Part shown: positions 285 to 22,526 of the stretch, in pieces | Layout of the letters: each line of letters begins with the position of its first letter | Position numbering within the stretch: position 1 is the first letter of the stretch | Origin: a virus | IMG/VR virus record: IMGVR_UViG_3300001352_000015 | Location: 1-23,793 of that record | Direction: 5' to 3' (one strand) | Length of the DNA: 23,793 bases | The notes under the pieces: generated by a model | Told to the model about the DNA's origin: nothing | What the model saw: the letters and a program-made list of their open reading frames with translations, nothing else | The model's database searches: none | Translations under genes and position numbers: made by a program

Positions 285-1886
285 TTAATATAATTTAAAA
301 TCTTCACTGTTTAAAATTTTTGCTCCTGCGTTTTTAATCTTGCTTGTTAATAATAACTCGTTAATTATGCACTCAGTTTTTTTCTTGAATAGTTTAACAT
401 TTGATTCTATCTTAAATTTACTATGCCAGCCTTTTGTTAGCCAGTTTATTATGTGATTCTTTAAATCGCTTGAAATCCTTGGCGAATTTAGAAATGAATT
501 TAATTCGTTTTCATCCTGAATTAATGAGTCAATTTTTATTTCCGAAGAGTTATCTAAATTTATTTTTTGCAGTATTTTATTTGGTATAATAATCGCGTTG
601 CTACAAATCCAGTTGTTAAATTTTATGTTATCTAGTGAAAAGTTTTTTTTTGATAAATTTAATCCATCAATCTTTCCGAAAACTATATCGTGTTTTTTTA
701 ATACATTTAATAAATCTTGATTTAAATGTTTGTCTATAATTTTTGTATTATAATTTAAGAAAGAATCATTTGTTATTAAAGTTAAATCATAATGCTTGCC
801 TTTTGATTCGTTGAATCCTTTTTGCCAGCCCGAAAATTCCCAGTTTAAGTTGTTACCTGGAATTATTGATATTTTTTTTCCTTGAAGTTTATTTAAGTCT
901 TCTCGTTTATTATCTATCACTATGCAATCAAAATCTATACCTTTATTGTATAAGGCGTCGGATAAAATTTTAAAAGAATGAGGATATTTGTTGGAATCGA
1001 ATTGAGTATATAAAACTAAAAGATTTGCTTTATTTTTAGGGTTAATTTTAAATCTAGAGCAATATCTATCATGCACTCCACATAATACGAAGATATCTGC
1101 ACCCTCTTTTTCTAAGCTGCAACAATAAGCCTTGTCTTCTGGGGCATTTATTTCTTTTTTTTCTTTTATTATTATTTCTTTATCTATTATTTCAAAGCTT
1201 ATCTCGTTAAACTTGTATTCGTATGTATCTCTTCTTTCGTGGCAAAGCATCTTAAATTTATTAGAATTAATATTTACAGGATTGCATGAGTTTCTGAGTT
1301 CTATAGGTTGTGTTAAGTTGGAGTTATTAAACGAAATATTTTCTAGTTTATCTGCTGTTGTATAAACGAGTGGGAACATGGAGCTTATTGCGTAAAATAA
1401 GTTTTCGTGCTTAAAGCACATCCAGTTTTTACTTGGATTGATTTGGTTTATTGGGTCAAACTTTTTAATATTAGTTATTTCTAGTTTGGATAAGTTTACT
1501 GAACAGTAACCTGCTGAAAAATCAATAGACAATTTTTTGCATTCTTCGTTATGGCAGACAACTTGGTTTATTATTGTGCACGTAGCTAAAGCAATGATAT
1601 CGCCGTTTTCTATTGTTTCTGTACCATGTATAAATCTTATATCTTCAGGAAATTTACAATCTGGATTTACGTCTTTTTTTATATAGCTGTCGAATTTTTC
1701 CCCTTTTATATTGAATTTTAATTTAACATATTCTCCGGAATTTTCTTTTAGCCAATAGGTAGATTGACCATTAAAGGAGCCTCTGGGCGGAGGTGAGTTT
1801 TTGTAGTCTTCTCCTCGCGCGATAGTATATTTTTTGCCATTAAAATTTATTGAGCTTGGATTAAAAATGTGAGTTGTTTTATTCAT
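285..1886 (-). CDS. Beta-propeller (GH130/GH43-like) domain fused to RgpF-like glycosyltransferase domain
   Basis: The product has 533 residues and looks two-domain. Residues about 10-285 carry signatures of five-bladed beta-propeller glycosidase or phosphorylase-like proteins. These are an EDIRF motif at 81-85 (usually EDPR), KNWMCF at 153-158 followed by a short strand and FP, and a CGVHDRY motif near 269. Residues about 287-500 look like a rhamnan-synthesis-F (RgpF)-type glycosyltransferase: NLLVLYTQFD opens a Rossmann strand, NLNWEFSGWQKGF (346-358) resembles the 'N.D.g.Wk.G' motif, and YDLTLITNDSFL resembles the 'l.NdS' motif. I see no signal peptide, so action would be in the host cytoplasm. 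The start overlaps the end of the upstream GT gene by 4 bases. The propeller could bind or trim glycan while the second domain extends it. Domain families are judged by motif only, and the propeller's catalytic residues are not certain. Confidence 0.55.
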   Translation of the reverse strand: MNKTTHIFNPSSINFNGKKYTIARGEDYKNSPPPRGSFNGQSTYWLKENSGEYVKLKFNIKGEKFDSYIKKDVNPDCKFPEDIRFIHGTETIENGDIIALATCTIINQVVCHNEECKKLSIDFSAGYCSVNLSKLEITNIKKFDPINQINPSKNWMCFKHENLFYAISSMFPLVYTTADKLENISFNNSNLTQPIELRNSCNPVNINSNKFKMLCHERRDTYEYKFNEISFEIIDKEIIIKEKKEINAPEDKAYCCSLEKEGADIFVLCGVHDRYCSRFKINPKNKANLLVLYTQFDSNKYPHSFKILSDALYNKGIDFDCIVIDNKREDLNKLQGKKISIIPGNNLNWEFSGWQKGFNESKGKHYDLTLITNDSFLNYNTKIIDKHLNQDLLNVLKKHDIVFGKIDGLNLSKKNFSLDNIKFNNWICSNAIIIPNKILQKINLDNSSEIKIDSLIQDENELNSFLNSPRISSDLKNHIINWLTKGWHSKFKIESNVKLFKKKTECIINELLLTSKIKNAGAKILNSEDFKLY

Positions 1887-3388
1887 TTGAATTTCATTTT
1901 GTTTTTATCTATGGGGTTTTTTACCCCCCAATGCTCAACACCGCTTTCGTCGTACATAGCTTCCTTTCCGAGACCGTTGGCTGTATTAAAGTTTTCTTTA
2001 TTGTATTGAAAAATAAAAGTTTTTTCAGGAGGGGTTTCTACGAAAGTTTGAACATACTTTGATTGATTTATTTTTTGAATTATTTTATCAAGAACTTTTT
2101 GACTCGGGCGCCTTTCGAGTGAATGGCCGTATATAATTTTGGTTAAACCATGAAAGTAGGTAATTGGTGCCAATGTTAGTATGTCCTGCCATCCTGACCT
2201 TCTTCTTCTGAGCATTAGGTCTAGCGCTGACTTATGTAGTGGATTATTTGGGGCGCTTATCATAATATCTTGCGAAAAATCTATAATTTTCCCATGATTA
2301 GAATGTAGTGGTAGAACGCATTTTGAATTTATATCTATAATTGAATTTAAGTTTTTATTTGCATGCCTGTCTATATCTGTATATAGGCCACCTTCGTTAA
2401 TTATTTTTAATAAACGCCATGTGTCAACTTTTGATACAATTGGGGCATCTTTTATTAAATTATAATCTATAGTTGATAAATTTTCTCTTAAATATAGTTC
2501 GACTTCATTATCATCTGAAATTTCAAGTTTCCATTCTGGGTTTATTTTTACTAGATTCTGTATTCCATTTACTGCTAATTGATTTGAGCTTTCTAATACA
2601 GACTTATCTTTCCATGAAATATGGATTTTCTTAGGTATTGAAGATAAAGGCTCAAGGAGGTCGTCTAAATTTTCTTTCTGCGAACTTATTCTCATCACGG
2701 AAGAGTTTTTAAAGAAATTAGATTTTTGATCCGACAACTCTATGGGGTCTGAAAAAACTTCTTTACTGTATCTTTCATTATTCAATTCAAAATTGGTTGC
2801 AGCCTCTCTCCCTCCAAGCTTTAAGTCCTGCAAGAAGAGGGGTTTTTTAAGCGCGTATACATTATAGTTTACTTGCATTTCAGCGGCAAATACATCCCAG
2901 ATCTTTTCTTGATAAAAGCCGTCGATCATAGCTTTTTGATAGGCTGAAGCGCCAAGCGGAGAGCAAATCATGATTGCGTGACCACTGAGCATGTTGAAAA
3001 TTTGATATACGTTTTCATCAATTTGTTGGGCGGAAATATTATCAATAGCTTTACCATCATTCATGGCTAGTTGAGATAGGCCTAGATAAAATAAATCTGC
3101 ATCATTAGGAATATCAATTTCCTTTGGCATTTCTCGATAAAAAGATACGTCATCCTCTAGTATTACGAATGGCTGAAATGGCCTTGAGTTATCTTGCTCT
3201 CTTAAGCCTGCTTCAATCATTCTTGCGTGACCTATGCTTCCGGATTTTTCTTTTGATATGCCTATTTCAAAAGGTATTATTTTTTTGCATTGATAATCTT
3301 TTAATATAGATTCTACGTGTTTAGAATTTTCACTATCTTCTGTTTTTGTGAGGTAGTAAAATTTAAGACTGTCTGTTTTTAATATCAT
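1883..3388 (-). CDS. Bifunctional glycosyltransferase: GT25-like domain plus GT32-like (DXD sugar-binding) domain
   Basis: The product has 501 residues. Residues 8-205 resemble GT25 (LPS galactosyltransferases): FYYLTKTED at the start, SIGHARMIEAG (51-61), then FVILEDDVSF with the EDD metal-site acidic triplet at 78-80. Residues 250-450 match the glycosyltransferase sugar-binding family PF04488 (GT32, OCH1-like): IPKKIHISWK at 251-260, a 'P-W' motif near 285, SKVDTWRLLKIINEGG, and YTDID at 336-340 as the DxD metal site. Both metal-binding motifs are intact, so two sequential sugar transfers by one polypeptide are plausible. The ATG overlaps the end of the upstream DUF2827 gene by 26 bases. 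There is no Shine-Dalgarno, only an A/T-rich upstream stretch. Donor and acceptor sugars cannot be read from the sequence. Confidence 0.75.
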   Translation of the reverse strand: MILKTDSLKFYYLTKTEDSENSKHVESILKDYQCKKIIPFEIGISKEKSGSIGHARMIEAGLREQDNSRPFQPFVILEDDVSFYREMPKEIDIPNDADLFYLGLSQLAMNDGKAIDNISAQQIDENVYQIFNMLSGHAIMICSPLGASAYQKAMIDGFYQEKIWDVFAAEMQVNYNVYALKKPLFLQDLKLGGREAATNFELNNERYSKEVFSDPIELSDQKSNFFKNSSVMRISSQKENLDDLLEPLSSIPKKIHISWKDKSVLESSNQLAVNGIQNLVKINPEWKLEISDDNEVELYLRENLSTIDYNLIKDAPIVSKVDTWRLLKIINEGGLYTDIDRHANKNLNSIIDINSKCVLPLHSNHGKIIDFSQDIMISAPNNPLHKSALDLMLRRRRSGWQDILTLAPITYFHGLTKIIYGHSLERRPSQKVLDKIIQKINQSKYVQTFVETPPEKTFIFQYNKENFNTANGLGKEAMYDESGVEHWGVKNPIDKNKMKFK

Positions 3389-4469
3389 TTATTATATTAT
3401 TATATATATTAATGTTGTCTTGATTATGTGGGCTATACTGTTTCAAAAAGTTTTTGTTATCGTCCTTCGTTTGTTCTAGCGTTTCGCTGTGATTTAGTAT
3501 AGCGTTCTTTAATTGGTTCGCCCCGAAGTCCACATCACAGTCCGGATAATAATAACCTACATCTTCTAAAGTTGAAGAGTTGTGTATCAAGGGCAGGTTT
3601 AGAAACAGAGCTTCAAGGTAGCTGTAGTTTAATTCGTTTTTAATTTGATGGCTAACTATGGTACTACCAAATTTACTTAACGCATCAAGCGTTCCCCATC
3701 TTTTATTGAAGTAGCAAAAGTCTTTCTTTTTTACAACCTCTAGTCTATTCATAAGCTTTTCGAAGAACGGATTAAACTTGATTCTTTGACAGCAGAATAC
3801 GTTTATGGATTTTAATATTTCCCGATCTTTGTTGTAAAGATTTTCCAATATGTTGATTGGTATTACGCAATTTTTAATAAAAGATATGTTTGGTTCAAAG
3901 ATGCATATTTTGTTGATTTTTTCTTTTTTAAAGCTTGGATCTAATCCTTTTTTTTGAAGTTCTTTGATTTTATCTTCCATAAAAAAAGAGTCCCATATGA
4001 AAGGAATAACTATAACATCTTTAAAATTATAATAAGTTTTTATATAGCTTTTGGAAAACTCGTGTTGGGGAGATATCCAGATTTGATTTAGGTATTTCGG
4101 TTTTTCTAGTGGCAGTTTTGTGCTTTTGCTTGATAGCGAGTGGTGAATATCATCCATCAATTTATTGCCAAAATGTATTAGTATCGTTTTGAAATTATTG
4201 TTCCTGGCTTTTAATTTGTCGTACATTTCTGGAAGTAAATCGAATCCGGCGACGATTACTAGGTCTAAATTTTCATTATCGTCGGCAAGTAAATCTTCTA
4301 AAAGCATACCTTTGTGATTCTTCTTTAGTTTGTGAGTCGGGTTTTTATGGGTGATATAAAAGCATTCGTGGCCGCATCTATCTATCATTTCATAAAGAAA
4401 TACGATGTTTTGTTGCATTCCGTTAGCCCAAAAAGCAATGGACATATCTAGGGTTATTCCTATTTTCAT
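3363..4469 (-). CDS. DUF2827 family protein, putative GT-B glycosyltransferase (copy 1)
   Basis: The product has 368 residues. It opens with MKIGITLDMS, then FWANGMQQNIVFLYEM (14-29), which matches the N-terminal signature of DUF2827 ('W.NGi.QN..fL'). This family sits in polysaccharide loci and is thought to have a GT-B fold. Later landmarks are a WISP motif (KYLNQIWISPQHEF), KTYYN, PFIWDS, an 'EPN' strand (ICIFEPNISF), and near the C-terminus NYSYLEALFLNLPLIHNS, which resembles the 'E..a....P.v' donor-binding region of GT-B enzymes. The gene overlaps both neighbours (26 bases downstream, 4 bases upstream). It is clearly paralogous to the gene at 5257-6336, sharing every landmark listed. The family assignment is good; the reaction is inferred. 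Confidence 0.7.
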   Translation of the reverse strand: MKIGITLDMSIAFWANGMQQNIVFLYEMIDRCGHECFYITHKNPTHKLKKNHKGMLLEDLLADDNENLDLVIVAGFDLLPEMYDKLKARNNNFKTILIHFGNKLMDDIHHSLSSKSTKLPLEKPKYLNQIWISPQHEFSKSYIKTYYNFKDVIVIPFIWDSFFMEDKIKELQKKGLDPSFKKEKINKICIFEPNISFIKNCVIPINILENLYNKDREILKSINVFCCQRIKFNPFFEKLMNRLEVVKKKDFCYFNKRWGTLDALSKFGSTIVSHQIKNELNYSYLEALFLNLPLIHNSSTLEDVGYYYPDCDVDFGANQLKNAILNHSETLEQTKDDNKNFLKQYSPHNQDNINIYNNIINDIKNRQS

Positions 4470-5260
4470 AATTTTATTTTTGTTTTTCGCAATGGTAAGA
4501 AGTCTATATTATTTGCGATCAGTAATATTGCCTGTTTATATATTTCAATAGGCCTATGGTTTATTTTGTCATCACCTTCGTAGCTTCTTTGATATGCCCC
4601 CCAAACTTGACACGAAAACACTAGCCAATAATACTCTAGTTCTATGTCGCACGAGATTTCTTCATTCGCGAATCTAACAAAACCATCATAATCTAAAGGG
4701 TGGTGACCCATAAAGTGTATTAAAAAGTCTCCACGATTGTATAGAGTTGGGTATATATTAAAGTGATGTGGGTTTACGGGGTTGAGTTTGCTATGTTTTT
4801 TTAGAATATCTACTAGCCTACCTTGGTCTTCATTGTTACCTCCATGCCTCCAGGGTTTGTCTACACCTATGTATCGAGATTCCCACCACTCATTTAACAC
4901 TTGTAGTGAAAAATCATTTGTTTTAAAAAACAAAACCCCACTATTTAGTGCTTGTCCTCCTAAGTCTTTTGCATGTAAAATATCTTGTTCTGAGTTTTTT
5001 AGATAATTATATAAATCGAAATTTCTATTAGCTATTGTAGTGTCCATATCTAGCCACCCTAAATATTCATATTCATTAAAATGATGTAATAATTTTAGCG
5101 GTTTTTGGTAGCAAAGGTGGGTTGATTTATCAAGGGTTCCTGCGCTTCCCAGGTGGTCGTAGCCTTTTTTGTTGCAATAATCTATAACTGAATTTACGCA
5201 ATTCTTGCGTTTTTCATAATATCTTGAATCGGATAGTTGACAAATTCCTATTTTTTTCAT
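4466..5260 (-). CDS. GT34-like glycosyltransferase (GMA12/MNN10-type, GT-A fold)
   Basis: The product has 264 residues, close to the family's catalytic core length. The N-terminus KKIGICQLSD is followed by VIDYCNKKGYDH. An acceptor-loop stretch (CYQKPLKLLHHF) then leads into WLDMDTTI near residue 70, where DMD is the DxD metal site. Downstream are ALNSGVLFFKTND (the 'NsGvfl.rn' motif), WWESR, NNEDQGRL (the 'DQ.al' motif) and LIHFMGHH near residue 180, the conserved 'HF.G' metal ligand. Every key motif of the GT34 fold is visible, so I expect an active retaining glycosyltransferase using a nucleotide sugar. It sits between two DUF2827 paralogues with 4-base ATGA-type overlaps on both sides, which implies coordinated translation. 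Confidence 0.8.
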   Translation of the reverse strand: MKKIGICQLSDSRYYEKRKNCVNSVIDYCNKKGYDHLGSAGTLDKSTHLCYQKPLKLLHHFNEYEYLGWLDMDTTIANRNFDLYNYLKNSEQDILHAKDLGGQALNSGVLFFKTNDFSLQVLNEWWESRYIGVDKPWRHGGNNEDQGRLVDILKKHSKLNPVNPHHFNIYPTLYNRGDFLIHFMGHHPLDYDGFVRFANEEISCDIELEYYWLVFSCQVWGAYQRSYEGDDKINHRPIEIYKQAILLIANNIDFLPLRKTKIKL

Positions 5261-6336
5261 GATAATAATTTTTTATATTTTTCTATAACAATTGGATTAT
5301 TTGGTGAGTGTTTGTAGATTGTTTTTTGCGCTTGCTCTTTGTATTTATCTAGATTTTGATCGTGATAATTTAAGGCGAGGTTTAGAGCCTCTGCCCCCAA
5401 CTTGGTGTCGTAATTAGGGTAGTAGTATCCAGATTCTTTAATCAGCTCAGAGTTGTGAACAAGGGGGAAATTGAAATGCAATGCTTCGAAATACGTATAA
5501 TTTAAGGCGTTCAATAGTTGATTTGAGATTATGACATTAGACATATCTGCAAATATTTTAGAAACTTTTATTCTTCCTTTAAATTCTATTTTATTTTCTT
5601 TTGTTACATCTAGGTTCCACATTAGGGATTTGAAGTATTTTTTATCAGTAAATTTTGCCGCGCAATAAACTGTTATTTTGTTAAAATCTTCCTTGCTGAC
5701 CTTTGTATAAAATTCTTCAGCTATCATTATCGATGGCAGGCAGTGTTTTGTTATGTTTAAATTAGGTTCGAGTATTCCAATATTTTTGTCTTCGCCTGGA
5801 CGGTAGTAGCAGGTCTTGTTTATTTTGTTCCATATTTTTTCATGCATGTCTATATATTTCGAGCTCCAGATATAAGGCAGTTCAAATACTCTTTCTGTGT
5901 TGTAATATGTTTTGTAGTAGTTATATGAAAATTTGTAATGAGGGGATATCCATACTTCGTCGACCATTTCTGGACTTATAGCTAAATGATCTTGCCAGCT
6001 ACATCTTTCTATGTCTGCCAGAAGACCATTTCCGTAAACAATATGTATGTTTTTGAAATTTTTATTTTTTTCTTTTATTGATTTTATTGTATCATTATTT
6101 ATTAGCCAGGAAGCGTTTAATATAAAAGATATATCTTCACAATATTCTAATAATTCATTTTCTTCTATAATTAATATATCAGATGGTGGATCAATGCATT
6201 CTTCTATTTTATGATTTATGGCAATAATTGGAGTAAAGCCAATGCCTTTTAATAGTTCAGCAAGGAAAACTATATTTTGTTGAAGTCCGTTGCTGAATAA
6301 CCCGTTTTTATAATTAGCAGTAAGCAATATATTCAT
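5257..6336 (-). CDS. DUF2827 family protein, putative GT-B glycosyltransferase (copy 2)
   Basis: The product has 359 residues. It begins MNILLTANYK, then FSNGLQQNIVFLAELL (14-29), the same family signature as the gene at 3363-4469. Shared landmarks are VWISPHYKF, KTYYN, LPYIWSS, IGILEPNLN, TVYCAAKF and NYTYFEALHFNFPLVHNS. The two copies are diverged rather than a recent duplication, so they may use different donors or acceptors. This is the first gene of the left glycan run and follows the tail protein after only a 30-base gap. That gap carries a copy of the putative late-promoter motif 5 bases before the ATG, with no Shine-Dalgarno. Predicted transcription would start on the ATG itself. Confidence 0.7.
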   Translation of the reverse strand: MNILLTANYKNGLFSNGLQQNIVFLAELLKGIGFTPIIAINHKIEECIDPPSDILIIEENELLEYCEDISFILNASWLINNDTIKSIKEKNKNFKNIHIVYGNGLLADIERCSWQDHLAISPEMVDEVWISPHYKFSYNYYKTYYNTERVFELPYIWSSKYIDMHEKIWNKINKTCYYRPGEDKNIGILEPNLNITKHCLPSIMIAEEFYTKVSKEDFNKITVYCAAKFTDKKYFKSLMWNLDVTKENKIEFKGRIKVSKIFADMSNVIISNQLLNALNYTYFEALHFNFPLVHNSELIKESGYYYPNYDTKLGAEALNLALNYHDQNLDKYKEQAQKTIYKHSPNNPIVIEKYKKLLS

Positions 6337-14057: not shown

Positions 14058-14372
14058 ATGATGAAAAAATTCACACAAATTCCAGTCGTTGTACAAGAAG
14101 ATATTATCAATGGAAACTTAATTGGTAATGATTTAGTTGTATATAACTATCTTGTTTCCAAGGCGTCCCACGGAAAGCCAATCTTTTTTTCTAACGAAAG
14201 AATAGGGTTGGATCTTGGGGGAATGTCATACGGAAAAATATCAGGAAGTCTTAACAGGTTAGCCAAGGCCAAGCATATCAAAAGAAAAAAAACTTGCAAT
14301 AAAACATTAACCCAGTTAACTACTGTAGTACTCGGCGGAGATAACGTAATAATAAGAGGCAGTAGACAGTGA
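14058..14372 (+). CDS. Small winged-helix DNA-binding protein, putative phage regulator
   Basis: The product has 104 residues from the ATG at 14058. A longer frame starts at 14043, but that ATG lies inside the promoter spacer and -10 region, so I reject it; 14061 is also possible. The pattern is winged helix-turn-helix: GNDLVVYNYLVSKASHGKPIFFSNERIGLDLGGMSYGKISGSLNRLAKAKHIKRKKT. It shows a first helix, then an 'S...Ia..l..s...i...l..L...g.I.r' recognition motif, then a beta wing (LTQLTTVVLGG). It is basic overall. As the first gene of the rightward transcript, next to two divergent promoters and a palindrome, an autoregulatory transcription-switch role is plausible. A replication-initiator fragment is the main alternative. 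Confidence 0.6.
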   Translation: MMKKFTQIPVVVQEDIINGNLIGNDLVVYNYLVSKASHGKPIFFSNERIGLDLGGMSYGKISGSLNRLAKAKHIKRKKTCNKTLTQLTTVVLGGDNVIIRGSRQ

Positions 14373-15319
14373 AGGTATCAGTAAGAATGGAGGGAGGGCT
14401 AGGAGACCATTTTGCGGCAAATCGTTTTGTTCCCGCAATAAAGGAGCTTTACCCAGATTGCTCTATAGATTTATTCTCAGACACACAAGGAAGCGAGAGT
14501 CAATCAAAGATACTTAATAAAATGTGGCCTTCTCATTTTAATGAAACATTCATCATTAAAGAAAAAAAATACAAAACATTTAAAATAAAATCATCCAATT
14601 TTCCAGATGAAGATCACATCGGCAATATAAAGAATGTACCCGATAACATATTCAATAAAATGAATAAAGAATATGATAAATTTTATGATCTACATATCGA
14701 TTCATTGGAATGGTTAAATTATAATTTTGACTGGTTTAAAAGATTTAATTTTTTCCCAAAACCAGAATGCCAAATAAACTCAAAAATAGATCTTCCAGAA
14801 AGATTCATAATGTCACATCTATATGCTAGAGATGGGGCAGATTCGAATATGGAAGATTGGTATATTGATAAACTCTTAAAGAATATTGCTCTAGAGTTTG
14901 ACGTGGTAGTACTTATGGATAAAGATTCCAAACACAAGTATCAAGATATAATTAATGACGAAAACCCTCGACTACACTTTGTGGAAGCTTCGCTAACAGA
15001 CATCTTCTTTATATCAAGTAAGTGTATCGCCGCCTTTGGAATTGATTCTGGAATAAGATTCATCCCCTACCACTATGGAAAGCCCACTTTTACGTTCTCA
15101 AAGTACTGCGAGTCTTACGGCGTAACTCAATATTCATATCTAATAAGATGGCTTTTTAATGAAAAGTTCGTGCTTCCCTTACACTACGACGTTAAGAGTG
15201 CGGGACAAATAATCAAAAACACATTAAGAAATCCTGCATACAGACTTTATCCATTTCTGCTGGATAATATCGAAAAGCTTGTAGCTCAGAGAAACATAAC
15301 GGAATATATCACAGAATGA
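14369..15319 (+). CDS. GT9/heptosyltransferase-like glycosyltransferase (GT-B fold)
   Basis: The product has 316 residues from a GTG at 14369 that overlaps the previous stop (GTGA). An in-frame ATG seven codons into the protein would remove the first strand, so GTG is preferred. KVSVRMEGGLGDHFAANRF (2-20) is the glycine-rich N-terminal loop seen in GT9 and related GT-B enzymes ('GglGD.l...p'). The C-terminal half has FIMSHLYARDGA, VVLMDKDSKHKYQDI and IAAFGIDSGIRFIPYHYGKPTFTF near 225-250. The last matches the 'g.DsG..hlA...gkP.i.l' donor-binding motif. This supports sugar transfer from an ADP-, GDP- or similar nucleotide donor. It opens the rightward glycan run. Confidence 0.65.
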   Translation: MKVSVRMEGGLGDHFAANRFVPAIKELYPDCSIDLFSDTQGSESQSKILNKMWPSHFNETFIIKEKKYKTFKIKSSNFPDEDHIGNIKNVPDNIFNKMNKEYDKFYDLHIDSLEWLNYNFDWFKRFNFFPKPECQINSKIDLPERFIMSHLYARDGADSNMEDWYIDKLLKNIALEFDVVVLMDKDSKHKYQDIINDENPRLHFVEASLTDIFFISSKCIAAFGIDSGIRFIPYHYGKPTFTFSKYCESYGVTQYSYLIRWLFNEKFVLPLHYDVKSAGQIIKNTLRNPAYRLYPFLLDNIEKLVAQRNITEYITE

Positions 15320-16134
15320 AAACAGCGCTACTATTTAGCGGAAAACTAGGAGACTGGGAAAACTGCATAGAATCCATAACGAAAAACATAATACAACCTC
15401 TCAGTCCAGATATTTTTATCAGCACTTGGGATGACCAACCCTATCAAGAATTCTGCCAATACTACAGGCCCACAAGGCAGCACATCTTAAATTTCGATCA
15501 AGTAATGAAAGTGGTAGGGTCAATAGATCAATTAAAACTCGAACCCAACCCAGGATTAATACCTATGCTAGCAGGACTAAAGACTTGCCACACAATGTAT
15601 CAGGATTACATTACTTACAAAAAAACTGAGTACGATCTAGTTGTCAGATTACGCCCAGATGTACAAGTTCTCGAGCCAATCAAAATTCACGAAAAAAATG
15701 ATTGCATAAAAAATAAATTAATTAGGTTACCCTTATTTGAGAGTGAAAACATTTACAACCACGAAGAAGAATTAAAAAAAGAATTTAGCTTCAGTTTTGT
15801 TTATGAAAAACAATCCTTACTAAATCAAATCAATGATCAATTTGCCATTGGGCACCCAGATCAAATGGATAAATATTTTAATTGCCTATCATTTATAAGG
15901 CAAGCCATAAAAATAATGTGGGAATGTGGATACCCGGAATATATGATTAAGGTTCCCGAATCAGTCATAACCATGTGTCTTAATTTGCAAAACTGCAAAT
16001 ACAAGCAATTAACCGGAACCAACTCTTTTGGCAACATAAAAACTATTTTATGCAAAGATGGAAAAAAGTGGAGAAACCAAGGACACAACTCTACAATCTA
16101 CAATGAAAGCCCCAATAGTACTAACAGCCTATAA
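15316..16134 (+). CDS. Putative GT-A glycosyltransferase of the 'RLRPD' type
   Basis: The product has 272 residues. It opens MKTALLFSGKLGDWENCIES, a start seen in a group of viral and bacterial LPS/capsule glycosyltransferase-like proteins, followed by PDIFISTWDD. The central motif YDLVVRLRPDVQV (106-118) supplies a DxD-like acidic site (RPD), and NDQFAIGHPDQMDKYF (173-188) matches the conserved 'DQfa.g....M..Y' motif of the same group. The start codon overlaps the previous stop region by 4 bases. The last 32 bases overlap the next gene. The family is not formally named here; the function as a glycosyltransferase is inferred from motifs and setting. Confidence 0.55.
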   Translation: MKTALLFSGKLGDWENCIESITKNIIQPLSPDIFISTWDDQPYQEFCQYYRPTRQHILNFDQVMKVVGSIDQLKLEPNPGLIPMLAGLKTCHTMYQDYITYKKTEYDLVVRLRPDVQVLEPIKIHEKNDCIKNKLIRLPLFESENIYNHEEELKKEFSFSFVYEKQSLLNQINDQFAIGHPDQMDKYFNCLSFIRQAIKIMWECGYPEYMIKVPESVITMCLNLQNCKYKQLTGTNSFGNIKTILCKDGKKWRNQGHNSTIYNESPNSTNSL

Positions 16135-17005
16135 TAGACCTGATTACTTTGAGCAAGTCTTAGATTCATTATCTCCGCAATGTTGGGACAGGAAGGTTTA
16201 TTGTGTTGTCGATGGACCTAGATTCAAGGAAGATATTCCCTTAATTGAAGATTCATTTAAACTGGTCAACCAATTCATTCCTCACTGCGAAACAGTGATA
16301 TCAAAATCAAACCAAGGTGTTGCTAGGATAATGAAATACGCAAGAGAGTTAGCCCTTAAAGACCATGAATTTGCTATAATCATTGAAGACGATTCCGTAT
16401 TGCAACCTCATTACATACAGCAGTTAGATTTTCTTATTGATAAATTTAAAGACGACGAAAGAATAGCAATGATTAATTGCTTCGGAGAGCATCATCGATC
16501 AAAGAAAACTCACCGTTATTCATATATAAATTATTTACATGATAGAGACGACAGGCTTTCTCTAAATATTCAAGAAGACAATAAAGATAAACTCATTTTA
16601 ATGGATCATCTTTGGGCTTATGCAATAAGGAGATCTTCTTACGAATCAATATGTGACATACTAGAGTCATACTGGAAGTTATTGCCGCAAGAATATAGAT
16701 TCAGACCTCATGGAGAAATTTTAAAATTAATGTCTTCCATTGGAGCTGATCCAAGAAAAATTGTCTCAAGTCAAGACTCATGCACCTCAGCAGCCTTTGC
16801 GGCTAGGGGTTTTATTAAAGTATCTACGTTCACTAATAACTTCAACTACATAGGAGAAATAGGAGAGCATAGCAACCCTGAAAATTTCAAACTTGATAGT
16901 TGGTTAAACCAAGAAGTTTACAAAAAATTTCAAAACAACTTTATTTGGAACGAGGATATATTTACAGAAATCAAATCCCACATGAAAAACAAATATTTAA
17001 AATGA
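16103..17005 (+). CDS. GT-A glycosyltransferase (GT2/GNT-I-like)
   Basis: The product has 300 residues from the ATG at 16103. An upstream in-frame ATG at 16058 would add 15 poorly conserved-looking residues lying wholly within the previous gene; MKAPIVLTAYNRPDYFEQVL is the typical start of this fold. AIIIEDDSVLQPHY contains the EDD metal site at 95-97. The 'DHLWAYAIRR' stretch near 168 resembles the 'g.aWa..r..w' acceptor loop, and FGEHHR lies between. The pattern is like GNT-I (N-acetylglucosaminyltransferase) relatives and GT2 enzymes. It overlaps the previous gene by 32 bases and the next by 4 (ATGA). Donor sugar unknown. Confidence 0.7.
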   Translation: MKAPIVLTAYNRPDYFEQVLDSLSPQCWDRKVYCVVDGPRFKEDIPLIEDSFKLVNQFIPHCETVISKSNQGVARIMKYARELALKDHEFAIIIEDDSVLQPHYIQQLDFLIDKFKDDERIAMINCFGEHHRSKKTHRYSYINYLHDRDDRLSLNIQEDNKDKLILMDHLWAYAIRRSSYESICDILESYWKLLPQEYRFRPHGEILKLMSSIGADPRKIVSSQDSCTSAAFAARGFIKVSTFTNNFNYIGEIGEHSNPENFKLDSWLNQEVYKKFQNNFIWNEDIFTEIKSHMKNKYLK

Positions 17006-17763
17006 AAAAAATAGGATCAATAACAAGCGTCAAGCCTAATCAGAGAATTTTAGCAAGAACACTAAAATCAATTCTCAATTATCAAAACGACCTAGATTTT
17101 GTATACGTTAATTTGTGCGATAGCGCACTAAGAGGAGATCATCTATCATTTCACAATAAGGAGTTAAGCGAAGAACTTTTTAATATTATAAATGAAAATA
17201 ACAATTTTCTAAAGTTAATTTGGTGCAAAGACTTAGGCCCATATACAAAACTTTTACCCACATTAAGTAAACATAAAAATGAAGATTGCATAATTATCAC
17301 TTTTGACGATGATACAATATATCACCCAAACCTAATCAGCAATTACATATCTGAATTTAATAAAAAACCAGGAATACTAACAGCAAGAGGATTCACCTTA
17401 GATATAAGTAAGGGCTGGAAAAATGTTGACTACAGAATTAGAGTTGAGCCCAAAAATAATGATTGCGTACATAATTTTCACACAGGAAAAGGCACAGTGT
17501 TATATAGTCCACTTTTATTTAAAGAAATCGAAAGCATTTTCAATTCAGATGTATATATGAAACTATGCCCAACAAATGATGATACTTGGTTTAACTTTTT
17601 TAGAATAAATCAAAAAATACCATGCAGATTAGTGCATAGCCTTCCCTATTCAGTTGCCGACTTAACAAACCATAACTGCGCCCTGCAGACAATTAACTGT
17701 GCAAATGCAAGTAGAGTTAATAATCAGCAAATACAGAATTGTGTTAAATATTTTAATTTATGA
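17002..17763 (+). CDS. Glycosyltransferase-like protein with DDD motif (GT-A)
   Basis: The product has 253 residues from the ATG at 17002, which overlaps the previous stop (ATGA). A frame extending back to 16900 would lie inside the previous gene and lacks support. It starts with SITSVKPNQRILARTLKSIL, the 'S.ts...Ri....tl.Sil.Q' motif of a bacterial LPS glycosyltransferase group. GPYTKLLPTL then leads to IIITFDDDTIYHPN with the DDD metal site at 102-104. CPTNDDTWFNFFRI near 192 is the conserved 'p.DD.Wf' motif of the same group. It is probably an inverting enzyme using a nucleotide sugar. The C-terminal residues NCANASRVNNQQIQ are polar and variable. Confidence 0.65.
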   Translation: MKKIGSITSVKPNQRILARTLKSILNYQNDLDFVYVNLCDSALRGDHLSFHNKELSEELFNIINENNNFLKLIWCKDLGPYTKLLPTLSKHKNEDCIIITFDDDTIYHPNLISNYISEFNKKPGILTARGFTLDISKGWKNVDYRIRVEPKNNDCVHNFHTGKGTVLYSPLLFKEIESIFNSDVYMKLCPTNDDTWFNFFRINQKIPCRLVHSLPYSVADLTNHNCALQTINCANASRVNNQQIQNCVKYFNL

Positions 17764-18416
17764 TAGAACACTTATTAAATGTATACCATTGTCCCAGTAA
17801 AATTAGAATAGGACCCAGAAGCGACGGTGGATATGTAGTTGACAGCAGCAACCTATCGGAGCAATTAATATCAGCTGGCTGCAATAATGAGACTTTATTT
17901 GAGTCAGAATACTTAAAAATACTACCTAATTCAAAAATTAAAATTTACGACCAAGGCGGAAGATGTGACTTGTCAAATAGTGACCCAAGGGTTAGCTTTA
18001 CTCAAAAATTTATAAAATCAATAGAAGATTTAGATATAACAGATGATTCCGTTTTATCTATAGATATAGAATCACATGAAATAAATTTAATCCAAGAAAG
18101 CGATATAGAATCCCTTTCAAAGATCAAGCAACTATTAATTGAATTCCACTTTTGGAACAATCCAAAAGAATGTGAAATTAAAGATATGTTCATTAAATTA
18201 AATAAAGTTTTTACATTAGTACATATTCATGCCAATAATAATAGAAGAACCTTCTATAAAAACAACATACCACAAGTAATAGAGCTTACATATGTAAATA
18301 AAAAAAATTGCAATTACAACCATCTTGAAAAATCAACCCTACCAACACCAAACTTAGATTTTCCAAATAATCCCAATCGGGCAGATATAAAATTAGACTG
18401 GATTAACAAAAAATAA
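17760..18416 (+). CDS. FkbM-like methyltransferase (divergent)
   Basis: The product has 218 residues, overlapping the previous stop by 4 bases. KIRIGPRSDGGYVVDSS (14-30) matches the 'riG...DGgYvv' opening of the FkbM/METTL24-type methyltransferase group. The SAM-binding stretch is recognisable but worn: LISAGCNNETLFESEYL (usually 'SfGvg.d..FE..l'), KIKIYDQ (usually 'fDp') and VLSIDIESHEINLI (101-110; usually 'KiDiEG.E...l'). An IPQVIELTYVNK strand closes the fold. Such enzymes O-methylate sugars or other small groups on polysaccharides. The substituted G after 'DIE' (Ser here) may reduce activity, so either a divergent active enzyme or a binding relative is possible. Confidence 0.55.
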   Translation: MIEHLLNVYHCPSKIRIGPRSDGGYVVDSSNLSEQLISAGCNNETLFESEYLKILPNSKIKIYDQGGRCDLSNSDPRVSFTQKFIKSIEDLDITDDSVLSIDIESHEINLIQESDIESLSKIKQLLIEFHFWNNPKECEIKDMFIKLNKVFTLVHIHANNNRRTFYKNNIPQVIELTYVNKKNCNYNHLEKSTLPTPNLDFPNNPNRADIKLDWINKK

Positions 18417-18432
18417 TAAATTAATTAAATAA

Positions 18433-19245
18433 ATGAAAATAGTCGCAGGAATACAATGTTATAACGAAGAAGATTTCATAAGGGAATCTATATCAAGCTT
18501 ATATTTGTTTTGTGATAAAATCATCATAACAGAAGGTTGCTGGGAAAGTAGCATAAAAATAGGCAAGAGCCCAAGAAGTTCAGACAATACAATTAACTAT
18601 ATAAAATCTATACCAGACCCATACAACAAAATAAAACTTTATCATTTCAACGGGTACAATCAAATGAGTCATAGGCACTTTACCTTAGAAAAAGCAAAAC
18701 AATACAAACCCGACTGGTATCTTAATGGAGATGGAGATGAAATTTTTCATGAAAACGAAATCGATTTTTTAATTAAAAATTTAAGTTCTGGAGTTAATGC
18801 ATTAAATCCAATGCATAAGTTATTTTGGAACGGTTTAGAGTTTTACGAAGAATGGAAGCCTATGGGTAGATTTTTTAAATTATCAAACTTAAATCCAAAC
18901 AAAGTTAAGGCATCAAAATTTAATTGCAACCATATCGATTACCCAGGAAATATTTTTAGCAATCCATTAACACCAAAAGATATTTACATATATCACCCAT
19001 CATACAGTAAAAATATTTCCCGACAGCAATTAAAAATAAACCACAGAAGCATAGATGATAAAACAAAATTCCCGCATTATATACAAGATGACTTAATGAT
19101 TAGGGGAAATCAAAATCTAAAATCTTGGCTAAAAAGTCTTACGCTTCATGAAGAAAATAAACTCCCAAAATGCCTACAAAAACATAAACTCTGTAATAAA
19201 AATTCAAAATTTCATAATTTAATAAATCTAGCAAAAAATGCATAA
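18433..19245 (+). CDS. GT2-like glycosyltransferase with GDGDE motif
   Basis: The product has 270 residues. MKIVAGIQCYNEEDFIRESI is the start of GT2-family enzymes ('i..yNee..i..sl'). PDWYLNGDGDEIF near 93-105 provides the DxD metal site at 100-102, followed by E103. The later CNHIDYPGNIF and IYIYHPSYSKN stretches resemble the substrate-side half of beta-1,4-type or LPS-core GT2 enzymes. It is separated from the upstream gene by 16 A/T-rich bases without a Shine-Dalgarno, and overlaps the next gene by 8 bases. The sugar is unknown. Confidence 0.7.
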   Translation: MKIVAGIQCYNEEDFIRESISSLYLFCDKIIITEGCWESSIKIGKSPRSSDNTINYIKSIPDPYNKIKLYHFNGYNQMSHRHFTLEKAKQYKPDWYLNGDGDEIFHENEIDFLIKNLSSGVNALNPMHKLFWNGLEFYEEWKPMGRFFKLSNLNPNKVKASKFNCNHIDYPGNIFSNPLTPKDIYIYHPSYSKNISRQQLKINHRSIDDKTKFPHYIQDDLMIRGNQNLKSWLKSLTLHEENKLPKCLQKHKLCNKNSKFHNLINLAKNA

Positions 19246-19879
19246 TTCAATGAACATAACATATACATACATTAGCCTTCAAAGAGATGAGTTGCGCTCT
19301 AAATTTGTAAATTCAATAGTAGATCAACACCCTCAAATAAAAGTCAATAAAGCCGTAGACCCCCAAGAAAAAAATGACTTAATAAACTTTTTGCGATATC
19401 TAGATAAAGAAGGCATACATATCGATAAAAAAAGAGACCCCAGAAACTACAAAGATCCACACTGCATAAAGTTCTTTTCTGCAAAAATCTCTATATTTGC
19501 TTCATACCTAAATGTCTTAAAAAAATACAAAGACTCAGATTACCTTGTTGTAATCCAAGACGACACCTATTTTAATAAAAGCTTTTTTAACGACATAAAT
19601 AACCTTATAAACTCAAATTATATGACAGATCAGGCTCCCTCTGCTCGTCTTGGTCAGTTTTTATCTGGAGCTATATTTAAAAAAAACTTTTACGACCTAG
19701 TGATTGAAAAATTAAAAAAAACAGGCATAGTAAGACCATTAGACCACACATTAAGCGGCTTAGCGCCCTGCGAAAAAATAATGCAAAATTGTAAACAAAA
19801 AATCGTCTGGGTACACAATTTTAAATCAAACGTCGGCCCGCCCCCTCAAAACCCCTCACCAATCAATATAAGTGATTAA
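19238..19879 (+). CDS. GT25-like glycosyltransferase
   Basis: The product has 213 residues from the ATG at 19238. An ATG at 19250 (four codons later) is equally usable and would give NITYTYISLQRDELR as the N-terminus, typical of GT25 ('i.y.islkRd..R'). SDYLVVIQDDTYFNKSFF carries the DD pair at 108-109 in the place of the EDD of GT25. SARLGQFLSGAIFKK and RPLDHTLSG follow as in that family. The enzyme is shorter than the GT25 domain of the 1883-3388 gene but has the same order of motifs. The last 8 bases overlap the HAD-nucleotidyltransferase gene. Confidence 0.6.
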   Translation: MHNSMNITYTYISLQRDELRSKFVNSIVDQHPQIKVNKAVDPQEKNDLINFLRYLDKEGIHIDKKRDPRNYKDPHCIKFFSAKISIFASYLNVLKKYKDSDYLVVIQDDTYFNKSFFNDINNLINSNYMTDQAPSARLGQFLSGAIFKKNFYDLVIEKLKKTGIVRPLDHTLSGLAPCEKIMQNCKQKIVWVHNFKSNVGPPPQNPSPINISD

Positions 19880-21254
19880 ATTAATTATATTTGATTTAGA
19901 TGGAGTATTAGTTGAGTCGCGAGAATTACATTATATTGCACTCAACAAAGCTCTGTCTGAAATAGGAGATCAATATACAATAAGCAAAGAAGAACATCTT
20001 TGTAAGTATGATGCATTAACAACTACGCAAAAACTAAAAAAGCTAACCGCCGAAAAAAATCTTCCAGAAAAATATCACAACAGAATATGGGAATTGAAAC
20101 AACAAAAAACATTACAAGAAATAGACGACTACCAGCGTGACCATAGAATAATAGATATTCTTAAAAAACTAAAATCACAAAATTATAAAATTGCATGCGC
20201 AACAAACTCTATAAGAGATACATCAAAATTAATGTTAATAAGAAAAGGTTTTTTTGAATACATAGATTTTCTATACTCAAATGAAGATGTAAACTTACCA
20301 AAACCCAATGCGGAAATTTACATGCAGTGCATGATCAAAGCGAAAGCTAACCCCGACGAAACTGTAGTTATAGAAGACTCTCACATCGGAAGAAAAGGAG
20401 CGATAAGAAGCGGGGCACATTTATGTGCAGTTACAGATTCTAACGACTTGACATTTACTAAGGTAAACAATACTATACTAAGTGCAGAAAAAACATCATC
20501 AATTTCACCCAAATGGCAAGGAGGTAAAATGAACGTACTCATTCCTATGGCTGGAGCAGGGTCCAGATTCGAGCAAGCAGGTTATACTTTCCCTAAGCCC
20601 CTAATTGATGTTGATGGAAAACCTATGATACAAAGAGTTGTCGAAAACTTAAATATCGACGCCAAGCATATCTTTATTGTACAAAAAGAACATTACGAAA
20701 AATACTCCCTAAAGCATACTTTAAATTTAATTTCTCCAAACTGCGAAATAGTTCAAGTAGAAGGCTTAACCGAGGGAGCGGCATGCACGACGCTTTTAGC
20801 TAAAGAGTTTATCAACAATAATCAACCATTAGTTCTAGCAAACTCCGATCAGTATGTACAGTGGGACAGTAATCAATTCATGTACTCATCTATGGCAGAC
20901 GACATCGATGCGTCCATTTTAACATTTCACTCAACTCACCCCAAGTGGAGTTACGCAAAATTAAATGATGACGGATTCGTGATTGAAGTAGCAGAAAAGA
21001 AACCCATCAGCGAACATGCAACTGTTGGTATATACTTCTGGAGAAAAGGCTCTGATTACGTAAAATCAGCAGAACAGATGATAGAAAAAAATATTAGAGT
21101 CAATAATGAATTCTACGTATGCCCAGTATATAACGAAGCTTTATTGAATGGAGCTAGAGTAAAAACGTTCCATATTGAAAAGATGTGGGGGCTAGGAACT
21201 CCAGAGGATCTAGAAACTTTCTTAAAATATGATATTAATATCCCACAGGGGTAA
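19872..21254 (+). CDS. HAD phosphatase fused to sugar-1-phosphate nucleotidyltransferase
   Basis: The product has 460 residues from a GTG at 19872, overlapping the upstream stop by 8 bases. Residues 1-190 are a HAD hydrolase of the beta-phosphoglucomutase-like subfamily: FDLDGVLVESRELH (D8 and D10 catalytic), CATNS (motif II), LPKPNAEIY (K144, motif III) and VVIEDSHIG (E168 and D169, motif IV). Residues 220-450 are a nucleotidyltransferase: NVLIPMAGAGSRFEQAGY (221-238), FPKPLIDVDGKPMI, LANSDQY (D326) and GIYFWRKG. The second domain closely resembles cytidylyl- or other NTP-transferases found in capsule loci, such as campylobacter Cj1416-type enzymes. Together they could dephosphorylate a sugar phosphate and activate it to a nucleotide sugar. 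A strong internal Shine-Dalgarno allows the second domain to be made separately. Confidence 0.85.
   Translation: MIKLIIFDLDGVLVESRELHYIALNKALSEIGDQYTISKEEHLCKYDALTTTQKLKKLTAEKNLPEKYHNRIWELKQQKTLQEIDDYQRDHRIIDILKKLKSQNYKIACATNSIRDTSKLMLIRKGFFEYIDFLYSNEDVNLPKPNAEIYMQCMIKAKANPDETVVIEDSHIGRKGAIRSGAHLCAVTDSNDLTFTKVNNTILSAEKTSSISPKWQGGKMNVLIPMAGAGSRFEQAGYTFPKPLIDVDGKPMIQRVVENLNIDAKHIFIVQKEHYEKYSLKHTLNLISPNCEIVQVEGLTEGAACTTLLAKEFINNNQPLVLANSDQYVQWDSNQFMYSSMADDIDASILTFHSTHPKWSYAKLNDDGFVIEVAEKKPISEHATVGIYFWRKGSDYVKSAEQMIEKNIRVNNEFYVCPVYNEALLNGARVKTFHIEKMWGLGTPEDLETFLKYDINIPQG
20448..20476 (+). promoter_or_regulatory. Possible internal promoter ahead of the nucleotidyltransferase domain
   Basis: TTGACA (20448-20453), a 17-base spacer and TACTAT (20471-20476) lie in the linker region between the HAD and nucleotidyltransferase domains. 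The predicted +1 is about 20483, about 46 bases before the internal ATG at 20529. The -35 is a perfect consensus and the spacing optimal, but the sequence is also coding, so chance occurrence is possible. Confidence 0.4.
20518..20531 (+). promoter_or_regulatory. Internal Shine-Dalgarno and start codon (nucleotidyltransferase domain)
   Basis: AAGGAGGT (20518-20525) lies 3 bases before ATG at 20529, in frame at residue 220, exactly where the nucleotidyltransferase domain begins (MNVLIPMAGAGSRF). It is the strongest Shine-Dalgarno on the plus strand here. Spacing is slightly short but usable. Confidence 0.7.
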
Positions 21255-21651
21255 CATTACTGGCCCTAACGAAAAAAGAGAAAACTCAATAAGTTACATA
21301 GAGGAAGCTCTAGAACTAGGATTTGATGTCGAAATTGACATCTGGGCAGATAAGCAATTATGGCTCGGGCATGATAACCCAGAAACTCCGTGTCCTACAA
21401 AATTTCTCATTCAGAACTTCAGACACTTATGGATTCATTGTAAAAACCTAGAAGCAATGGACCTACTTAGCCAGTTTAGAACTTTAAATTATTTTTGGCA
21501 TGAGTCAGACGACTTTACGTTAACTTCTAAAAATTTCATATGGACCTATCCAGGAAAAAGGGTCAGCAATAAAAGCGTTTTGGTTGTAGATGATGCAAGG
21601 CGGTATGCGGGGCCTCCATGCTTTGGCTTATGTTCTGATTATTTAAAATGA
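21229..21651 (+). CDS. Small GDPD-like phosphodiesterase
   Basis: The product has 140 residues from the ATG at 21229, which lies 26 bases inside the previous gene; MILISHRGN is the expected family start. The short glycerophosphodiester-phosphodiesterase-like pattern is visible: HRG at 6-8, ENSISYIEEALELGFDVEIDIW with the E-x-D metal ligands, LWLGHDNPE with the HD pair, WIHCKNLEAM, and IWTYPG. LCSDYLK closes the protein. It lacks the length of full GDPD enzymes (about 240 residues), but such 140-160-residue forms are commonly found beside HAD and nucleotidyltransferase genes in capsule or LPS loci. It probably cleaves or handles a phosphodiester sugar precursor. Confidence 0.7.
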   Translation: MILISHRGNITGPNEKRENSISYIEEALELGFDVEIDIWADKQLWLGHDNPETPCPTKFLIQNFRHLWIHCKNLEAMDLLSQFRTLNYFWHESDDFTLTSKNFIWTYPGKRVSNKSVLVVDDARRYAGPPCFGLCSDYLK

Positions 21652-22526
21652 ACGAATGGAACCCACACAAATTAAAAAACAAGGAAGGGCAAGAACTAAG
21701 TTTCGTTTCAAGTTTTACTAATTTTTCGATATCGCTACAAAAAGGAATATTAAAAAGATTCGAACAGCTCGAAAGAACAGTATCAATAATAATACAAGGA
21801 CCACTTCACGAAAGATCAATAAGCACCATCAATAACTATTTACGCTACGGAGAAGTTATAGTAAGTTGTTGGGACACAGATGACCTATCAAGACTAGATA
21901 ATTACAAAGATAAAATAAAAATCGTAGTCAATAAATATAAAAACGTAAAAGTTAAAAATAAAAAGCCAGGAAAACAAGCCCCATGGATATACCAAAACAT
22001 AACGACATTAAGCGGAATCAAAAAGGCGACAGGTTTCTTTTGCATAAAAGTTAGATCTGACGAGAGTTACCCAACCCTAGAGCCATTCATATCAAAATTA
22101 ATAAACAACTCTCACATAAATAAAAAAAACGGAGAATATCAATGGTTTAAAATAATAACTTCGAATATCTATTTTAGATTCTCAAGGCAGAACAAATTCC
22201 ACCCATCCGATCATATTGTAGCTGGAGAGCGAACAAGGATGCTTGATGTGTTTAAACTATCAACAGAGCTTTGTAATAAAAAAAGGATATCTCAATTTCC
22301 AGAACAGCTACTGTGTCGAGCTATAATAGAAAGCTTTTGGGACAAAAACTTAAAAAGGGCTGGCGTGCTAGATGAAAAAAAATGCACAGAACTAATGAAA
22401 AAACATTTTGACATAATAAGAATACGCGATTTACCAAATCACATATGGACATCTAGCTACAGAAAGTATGACGCGCTATACAACGAAGAAGACTGGTGTC
22501 ACGACATAGAATTAATTGATAGTTGA
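21648..22526 (+). CDS. WavE-like LPS biosynthesis glycosyltransferase
   Basis: The product has 292 residues. SIIIQGPLHERSISTINNYL near residue 46 is the opening signature of the WavE family (PF07507, core-LPS synthesis). Downstream are VIVSCWDTDD, FFCIKVRSDESYPT (the 'K.RsDe' acidic site) and ITSNIYFRFSRQNKFHPSDHIVAG near 160-183, the characteristic 'fhpSDhi..G' block. The C-terminal FPEQLLCRAIIESFW also fits ('PEq.l'). The fold is expected to be GT-A. It overlaps the GDPD-like stop by 4 bases. It is probably the last gene of the rightward glycan operon before a new promoter at 22523. Confidence 0.8.
   Translation: MNEWNPHKLKNKEGQELSFVSSFTNFSISLQKGILKRFEQLERTVSIIIQGPLHERSISTINNYLRYGEVIVSCWDTDDLSRLDNYKDKIKIVVNKYKNVKVKNKKPGKQAPWIYQNITTLSGIKKATGFFCIKVRSDESYPTLEPFISKLINNSHINKKNGEYQWFKIITSNIYFRFSRQNKFHPSDHIVAGERTRMLDVFKLSTELCNKKRISQFPEQLLCRAIIESFWDKNLKRAGVLDEKKCTELMKKHFDIIRIRDLPNHIWTSSYRKYDALYNEEDWCHDIELIDS

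Follow-up and report, generated by a model that had tools for sequence, protein, structure and literature searches.

A viral protein that joins a predicted GH130-type propeller to an RgpF-like glycosyltransferase domain

What might a virus do with a glycosidase-type propeller and a glycosyltransferase domain on a single chain? The question is raised by positions 285–1886 (minus strand) of the 23,793-nt stretch of DNA analysed here (the window), part of the 53,193-base IMG/VR record IMGVR_UViG_3300001352_000015. This region is one open reading frame of 533 amino acids with an ATG start, which the initial annotation had read as a glycosidase- or phosphorylase-type propeller fused to an RgpF-like transferase, an uncommon architecture that could both recognise or trim a glycan and extend it, and might set chain length or branch points. 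The two-domain fusion, a GH130/BMT-like propeller followed by an RgpF-like GT-A domain, is real: the gene is intact in two other records, with a copy in L003 that is byte-identical over the gene and a full-length fusion in L002 that is 90% identical. The full fusion is found in three IMG/VR records, the window's own included, and a tblastn search with the 533-residue protein gave no match among 50,697 phage records, so that the description as uncommon stands. Each domain is of a known kind, and it is the fusion and its shuffling that were not met in the searches of phage records or of the literature; the latter, on phage bifunctional glycosyltransferases with propellers and on RgpF with propellers or phage glycosyltransferases, did not find the fusion, which does not in itself prove its absence from print. 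Both halves of the protein are under purifying selection, as dN/dS between the window and L002 is 0.24 for codons 3–285 and 0.15 for codons 286–533.

The protein was modelled with AlphaFold2 from an alignment of seven rows. In the full-length model (pLDDT 70, pTM 0.52) the first half is all-beta and the second alpha/beta, and residues 1–285 (1032–1886, minus strand) modelled alone give 20 strands with a pTM of 0.76 and a pLDDT of 70. Twenty strands fit five blades of four, a blade count that we infer. When the propeller alone was compared with solved structures by VIA alignment, most of the top rows were GH130 entries, led by 5ay9 (Z 17.1, rmsd 4.2, 243 aligned) and including 9gph (Z 16.3, rmsd 3.7, 238 aligned), 4kmi (Z 16.0, rmsd 4.3, 240 aligned) and 7fip (Z 15.8, rmsd 3.7, 236 aligned), with a single GH159 entry, 7zei, among them at Z 15.5. 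GH62 and GH43 followed at Z 14–15 and the GT108 entries 6q4z and 6q50 at Z 13.9. Foldseek similarly placed 9gph first (E 9.6e-6) and 6q4z third (E 4.3e-5). Paramyxovirus attachment proteins, retrieved by Foldseek with the full-length model, were set aside as generic propeller matches. Residues 1–285 are thus predicted to form a GH130-type five-bladed propeller whose nearest solved folds are the GH130 mannoside phosphorylases, in agreement with the propeller that had been proposed; neither a non-propeller fold for this half nor a single continuous glycosyltransferase fold was found. The Leishmania GT108 mannosyltransferase/phosphorylases (6q4x–6q50) are also five-bladed propellers and are capable of transfer from GDP-Man, though the fold score of the window's propeller against them is lower than against GH130 and they are likened to it by fold alone.

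The C-terminal half, residues 286–533 (288–1031, minus strand), is an RgpF/GT2-like GT-A domain according to both the model and profile comparison. Residues ~286–530 of the full-length model share the GT-A fold with the WrtF fucosyltransferase 9omk (Z 12.5, rmsd 2.9, 166 aligned) and the K4CP chondroitin polymerase 2z87 (Z 12.1, rmsd 3.6, 172 aligned), at an identity of 9–12%. The RgpF-type motifs that had been claimed for this half are present (NWEFSGWQKG...ND374S), and hhalign against eight RgpF proteins, those of a set of 12 that hold DFGSYK, gave 85.1% at E 6.1e-6, with controls at 0.1 and 0.2%. The alignment sets WEFSGWQKG against DFGSYKRG and NDS against NDS, so that the RgpF rhamnan synthesis family (PF05045) and the window domain share E/D-F-[SG]-x-x-[QK]-[KR]-G followed by NDS in register; the DXD-like NDS is N373-D374-S375 (762–770, minus strand). 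In contrast to RgpF, the window domain, of about 250 residues, has no GP after NDS and falls below Pfam detection: the window protein (P0001) and the stand-alone copies in L006 and L007 described below all score under the PF05045 cut-off. A profile of the domain run through 386 cyanobacterial genomes matched best a Pfam GT2 protein (L052, E 2.4e-6), then L053, and matched a Pfam RgpF protein (L056) at E 0.0056. Against Pfam, PHROG, NCBIfam and PDB sequences the window protein itself gave a direct family match for neither half; matches to haemagglutinin components among the PDB sequences were weak, not significant and covered only part of the domain concerned, and were set aside.

The sequence kinship of the propeller half was sought through intermediates. 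The window's propeller and those of its relatives form a four-member set, referred to here as the phage propellers, and cyanobacterial GH130-like proteins were collected for comparison. Two of the latter with a [KR]NW motif, L045 and L049, score 42.9 and 32.0 bits with Pfam GH130, whose cut-off is 26 bits. Across the 386 cyanobacterial genomes the phage propeller profile gave weak matches in 14, among which L028/L081 was the one found to be related. The protein concerned (L081/L082, 729 residues) is matched both by the phage profile (E 9.4e-4) and by a profile of L045 and L049 (E 8.9e-7); its gene lies at 4119–6308, and its layout is an N-terminal part that reads by eye as GT2, TPR repeats and a propeller. 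With 31.9 bits the propeller stretch exceeds the Pfam BMT cut-off of 28.3, and its match to GH130 is weak. This propeller in turn finds three phage proteins, from Synechococcus phage DSL-LC02, Actinomycetia phage DSL-LC01 and S-SCSM2R ('MGP protein'), two of the three annotated as beta-mannosyltransferases. We use the name KNW branch for proteins with NPS..R, ED.R, KNW, H and G..D in that order together with profile-level homology.

Compared by hhalign, the four phage propellers matched six KNW propellers at 95.9% (E 6e-9, 252 columns), rising to 96.5% (E 8e-10) when three GH130 proteins were added to the six, while controls with the reversed sequence and with the C-terminal domain gave 0.1% or less. 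On these profile comparisons residues 1–285 would belong, remotely, to the KNW branch of the GH130/GT108 clan. The link depends on intermediates, and most of all on L081. With only the three phage KNW proteins as target the match was weak (4.5%), against GH130 alone it was not significant (0.9%), and two other runs against GH130-only or small sets gave 4.7 and 1.8%. None of the four phage propellers matches PF04041 or the BMT family PF12141, the window record has no PF04041 match at E 10, and HMMs set against shuffled controls gave no support for the link. In 20 pairwise Smith-Waterman tests with 400 shuffles each, the L006 propeller with L045 was the sole pair whose score no shuffle reached; P0001 with L081 is weak pairwise, 13 of 1000 shuffles reaching its score. 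The phage propeller profile found no relative in genome contigs or in the genomes of L024–L027 (none of four), and scans of viral contigs with the profile of the set that gave 1.8% and with L081 found none either, nor were any found in plasmids. The long GH130 proteins L042, L043 and L051 were excluded from the final alignments (the first two had served in the GH130-only set) and L046 was unused. Also left out were L047, L048 and L050, which also score above the PF04041 cut-off but seem to be another kind of propeller, lacking KNW; they come from small-genome members of the cyanobacterial phylum searched, and in L047 and L050 the gene lies, by eye, beside TIM-barrel-like and methyltransferase genes.

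The KNW propellers of L081 and the three phages resemble that of the window in the order NPS/T, ED.[RK], KNW, H, G..D and in a neighbourhood of glycosyltransferase, TPR, methyltransferase or fibre genes. They differ in their remote sequences, which came up in profile searches or by way of L081 and not otherwise, and in being stand-alone or fused to GT2-like and TPR parts where the window's is fused to an RgpF-like domain. The stand-alone phage propellers adjoin methyltransferase/TPR genes, and the one in DSL-LC02 adjoins tail-fibre genes too; in this last phage (L083 3914–7034) the KNW propeller stands beside a TPR, FkbM methyltransferase and radical SAM/SPASM fusion, the two lying between tail-fibre genes. 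Pfam BMT, which represents the fungal beta-1,2-mannosyltransferases (CAZy GT91), is matched by L081 and not by the phage domain, and L081 would thus seem to bridge BMT/GT91 and the GH130/GT108 propeller clan. The GT91 fold is given as unsolved, and predicted or probably novel, in a 2021 account (PMC8476585).

Which of these activities the propeller might have was considered from an alignment of 13 sequences: the four phage propellers, six KNW and three GH130 proteins. The N-terminal landmarks lie where they had been placed, as E81-D82-x-R84, K153-N154-W155 and C269-G270-V-H-D273, and vary little or not at all in relatives at 32–34% identity. N9, D82 and G270 are kept in 13/13 sequences, R24, R84, K153 and H216 in 12/13 and D273 in 11/13. 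According to PMC4599007, the GH130 enzyme BT3780 has N74 as the –1 subsite Asn and D142 as candidate catalytic acid, along with a specificity Lys and an O4/O6-binding Asp. By our own mapping to that enzyme these would correspond to N9 of NPS (1860–1862, minus strand), to D82 within E81-D82-I83-R84 (1635–1646, minus), to K153 of KNW (1422–1430, minus) and, against BT3780 D363, to D273 of CGVHD (1068–1070, minus), aligned with the Asp of the GH130 YGxAD motif. The acidic catalytic residue looked for in the propeller thus has a fully conserved candidate in D82. At the KNW site the N and W are present in 10/10 phage and KNW sequences, whereas all three GH130 proteins have KD. H216 (1239–1241, minus) is replaced by Gln in L006, and D273 by Asn in L007 and His in L049.

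A propeller that works as glycoside hydrolase or phosphorylase, trimming a glycan that the C-terminal domain extends, is what its nearest solved folds, the GH130 phosphorylases and hydrolases, would suggest at first sight, and the candidate catalytic Asp is preserved. The window propeller shares the –1 subsite residues as well as the predicted fold with these enzymes (PF04041), but lacks, besides the Pfam match, the Arg that precedes Pro in the GH130 HRP motif. The four phage propellers have Phe, Phe, Asp and Phe at this position, which is non-basic in all six KNW proteins, although the His aligned with that of HRP is kept in three of the four phage propellers. We take this Arg to be one of the three phosphate-binding basic residues of PMC4599007, and because it is replaced in the phages and non-basic in the KNW proteins the phosphate site of the phosphorylases is read as lost in both. 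The same paper gives the rule that hydrolases are expected to have a Glu at the phosphate-site position; contrary to this, no Glu is consistently found in the propellers at what we map as that place. The closest profile family, moreover, is one of transferases, and the nearest kin in sequence are annotated or profiled as beta-mannosyltransferases. The suggestion that the propeller might recognise or trim is therefore doubtful, and trimming is a role we consider improbable: either a transferring enzyme or a module that binds the acceptor without catalysis would fit better, and a second transferase, of the beta-mannosyl type, is more likely than trimming.

The non-catalytic option would make the propeller a catalytically dead, lectin-like module that binds the acceptor and presents the glycan to its transferase partner. 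It would account for the pairing of the propeller with varied transferase partners in varied orders, for the imperfect preservation of D273 and H216 among relatives and for the faster evolution of the N-terminal half (dN between window and L002 of 0.083, against 0.025 for the C-terminal half). The complete conservation of N9, D82 and G270, and of the NW pair among phage and KNW sequences, is on the other hand more than a bare scaffold would need, and phages have KNW propellers that stand alone with no fused transferase to serve. We regard this option as somewhat unlikely. The reading that we prefer remains a transferase propeller, and its strongest general argument is that four arrangements (window, L006, L007 and L081) combine the propeller with glycosyltransferase domains, taken together with the contexts of the stand-alone phage propellers.

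Two of these arrangements are in viral relatives of the window's cassette, where the N-terminal domain (32–34% identity to that of the window) sits within larger proteins: in L006 a 754-residue protein with propeller, RXYLT1_C/GT47 and GT34 parts, and in L007 one of 723 residues in the order GT47, propeller, GT34. The C-terminal domain is a stand-alone gene in both (245 and 246 residues, 34–37% identity), and the start of another is seen in L008, where the contig end cuts it. Both parts are thus found apart or reordered in related viruses, which suggests a shuffled toolkit for an unusual sugar coat. Since the C-terminal domain has its own gene in L006 and L007, and in L008 within the reach of its contig, one could argue that only this domain matters and that gene shuffling produced the fusion as a passive side effect. 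Selection acts on both halves, however, and transferases accompany the propeller in the cassettes of the window, L002, L003, L006 and L007; we consider this explanation very improbable. A further long fusion within the same type of cassette is a 901-residue multi-domain transferase of L006 (2293–4998), with GT25-like and DXD sugar-transferase-like stretches recognised by eye.

The surrounding cassette, of two DUF2827 genes, GT25-like/sugar-transferase genes and GT34, is conserved among the relatives. In the window it comprises at least five glycosyltransferase-like genes with overlaps of 4–26 bp, all on the minus strand. The start of the fusion gene overlaps by ATGA the stop of the upstream gene (1883–3388), which has a phrog_24091 domain and Gly_transf_sug by PHROGs and Pfam; next come, by Pfam, a DUF2827 glycosyltransferase-like protein (3363–4469), a GT34-like protein (4466–5260) and a second DUF2827 protein (5257–6336). 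Downstream, the window edge leaves only the start of another GT34-like gene (1–284), whole in L003 (6603–7379) and with a homologue in L002 that matches Pfam GT34. The paired DUF2827 genes are kept in the cassettes of the window, L002, L003, L006 and L007, and have relatives at about 30% identity in Picosynechococcus and Prochlorococcus, a hint that the host may be a cyanobacterium. The cassettes of L006 and L007 end at a large, repeat-rich gene of structural appearance, and the 53,193-base record contains tail-type structural genes: an 861-residue neighbour has a tail-sheath PHROG match, and proteins of 1,643 and 1,540 residues read, by eye only, as tape-measure type and tail-tip-like respectively. 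A second sugar cluster lies on the opposite strand of the window (14369–22526, plus), with GT2-like and GT25-like genes and a WavE protein at 21648–22526. It also includes a fusion of a HAD hydrolase/phosphatase with a sugar nucleotidyltransferase (19872–21254, plus), possibly a one-chain maker of donor sugar in a phage.

Taken together, the protein may be a two-site transferase, with a beta-mannosyltransferase-type propeller and a GT-A transferase, that helps to decorate a virion protein, a proposal for which we consider the evidence evenly balanced. For activity, donor sugars, order of steps and target we infer the following. The propeller would be a catalytic domain of the GH130/GT108/BMT kind in which D82 takes part in acid/base catalysis, N9 and D273 hold the donor hexose and K153 touches the acceptor. 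As donor it would take a nucleotide sugar (by analogy GDP-mannose) instead of a sugar phosphate. The RgpF-like GT-A domain would attach a further sugar by way of ND374S, probably with a metal, so that two sites on one chain could place two successive sugars on one acceptor. Working within a phage glycosyltransferase cassette beside tail- or fibre-like genes, the enzyme would most probably decorate a virion protein, a target suggested by the gene neighbourhood only; virion glycosylation is known in mycobacteriophages, according to PMC12619734.

Catalysis by a propeller is rare among glycosyltransferases, GT108 being the case described in PMC8476585 and PMC8950772. A broader picture, offered tentatively and rather unlikely to hold in full, is that one chain with two transferase sites of unrelated folds, a BMT/GT108-like propeller and a GT-A domain, builds a disaccharide of beta-mannose and another sugar on phage structural proteins, either alternating or in two steps, and that related phages rewire this pathway by shuffling whole catalytic domains; as a corollary the fungal GT91 enzymes would fall in the GH130/GT108 propeller clan, to which the KNW proteins of bacteria and phages would link them. 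This bridge is the part that specialists may find most useful, and it may already show in the AlphaFold DB; the KNW branch offers a testable fold for GT91. The divergent propeller branch in environmental phages, fused to a GT-A domain and shuffled among cassettes, would provide a natural panel for the passage from a hydrolase/phosphorylase scaffold to a transferase, and a candidate mechanism by which phages may diversify their virion glycans.
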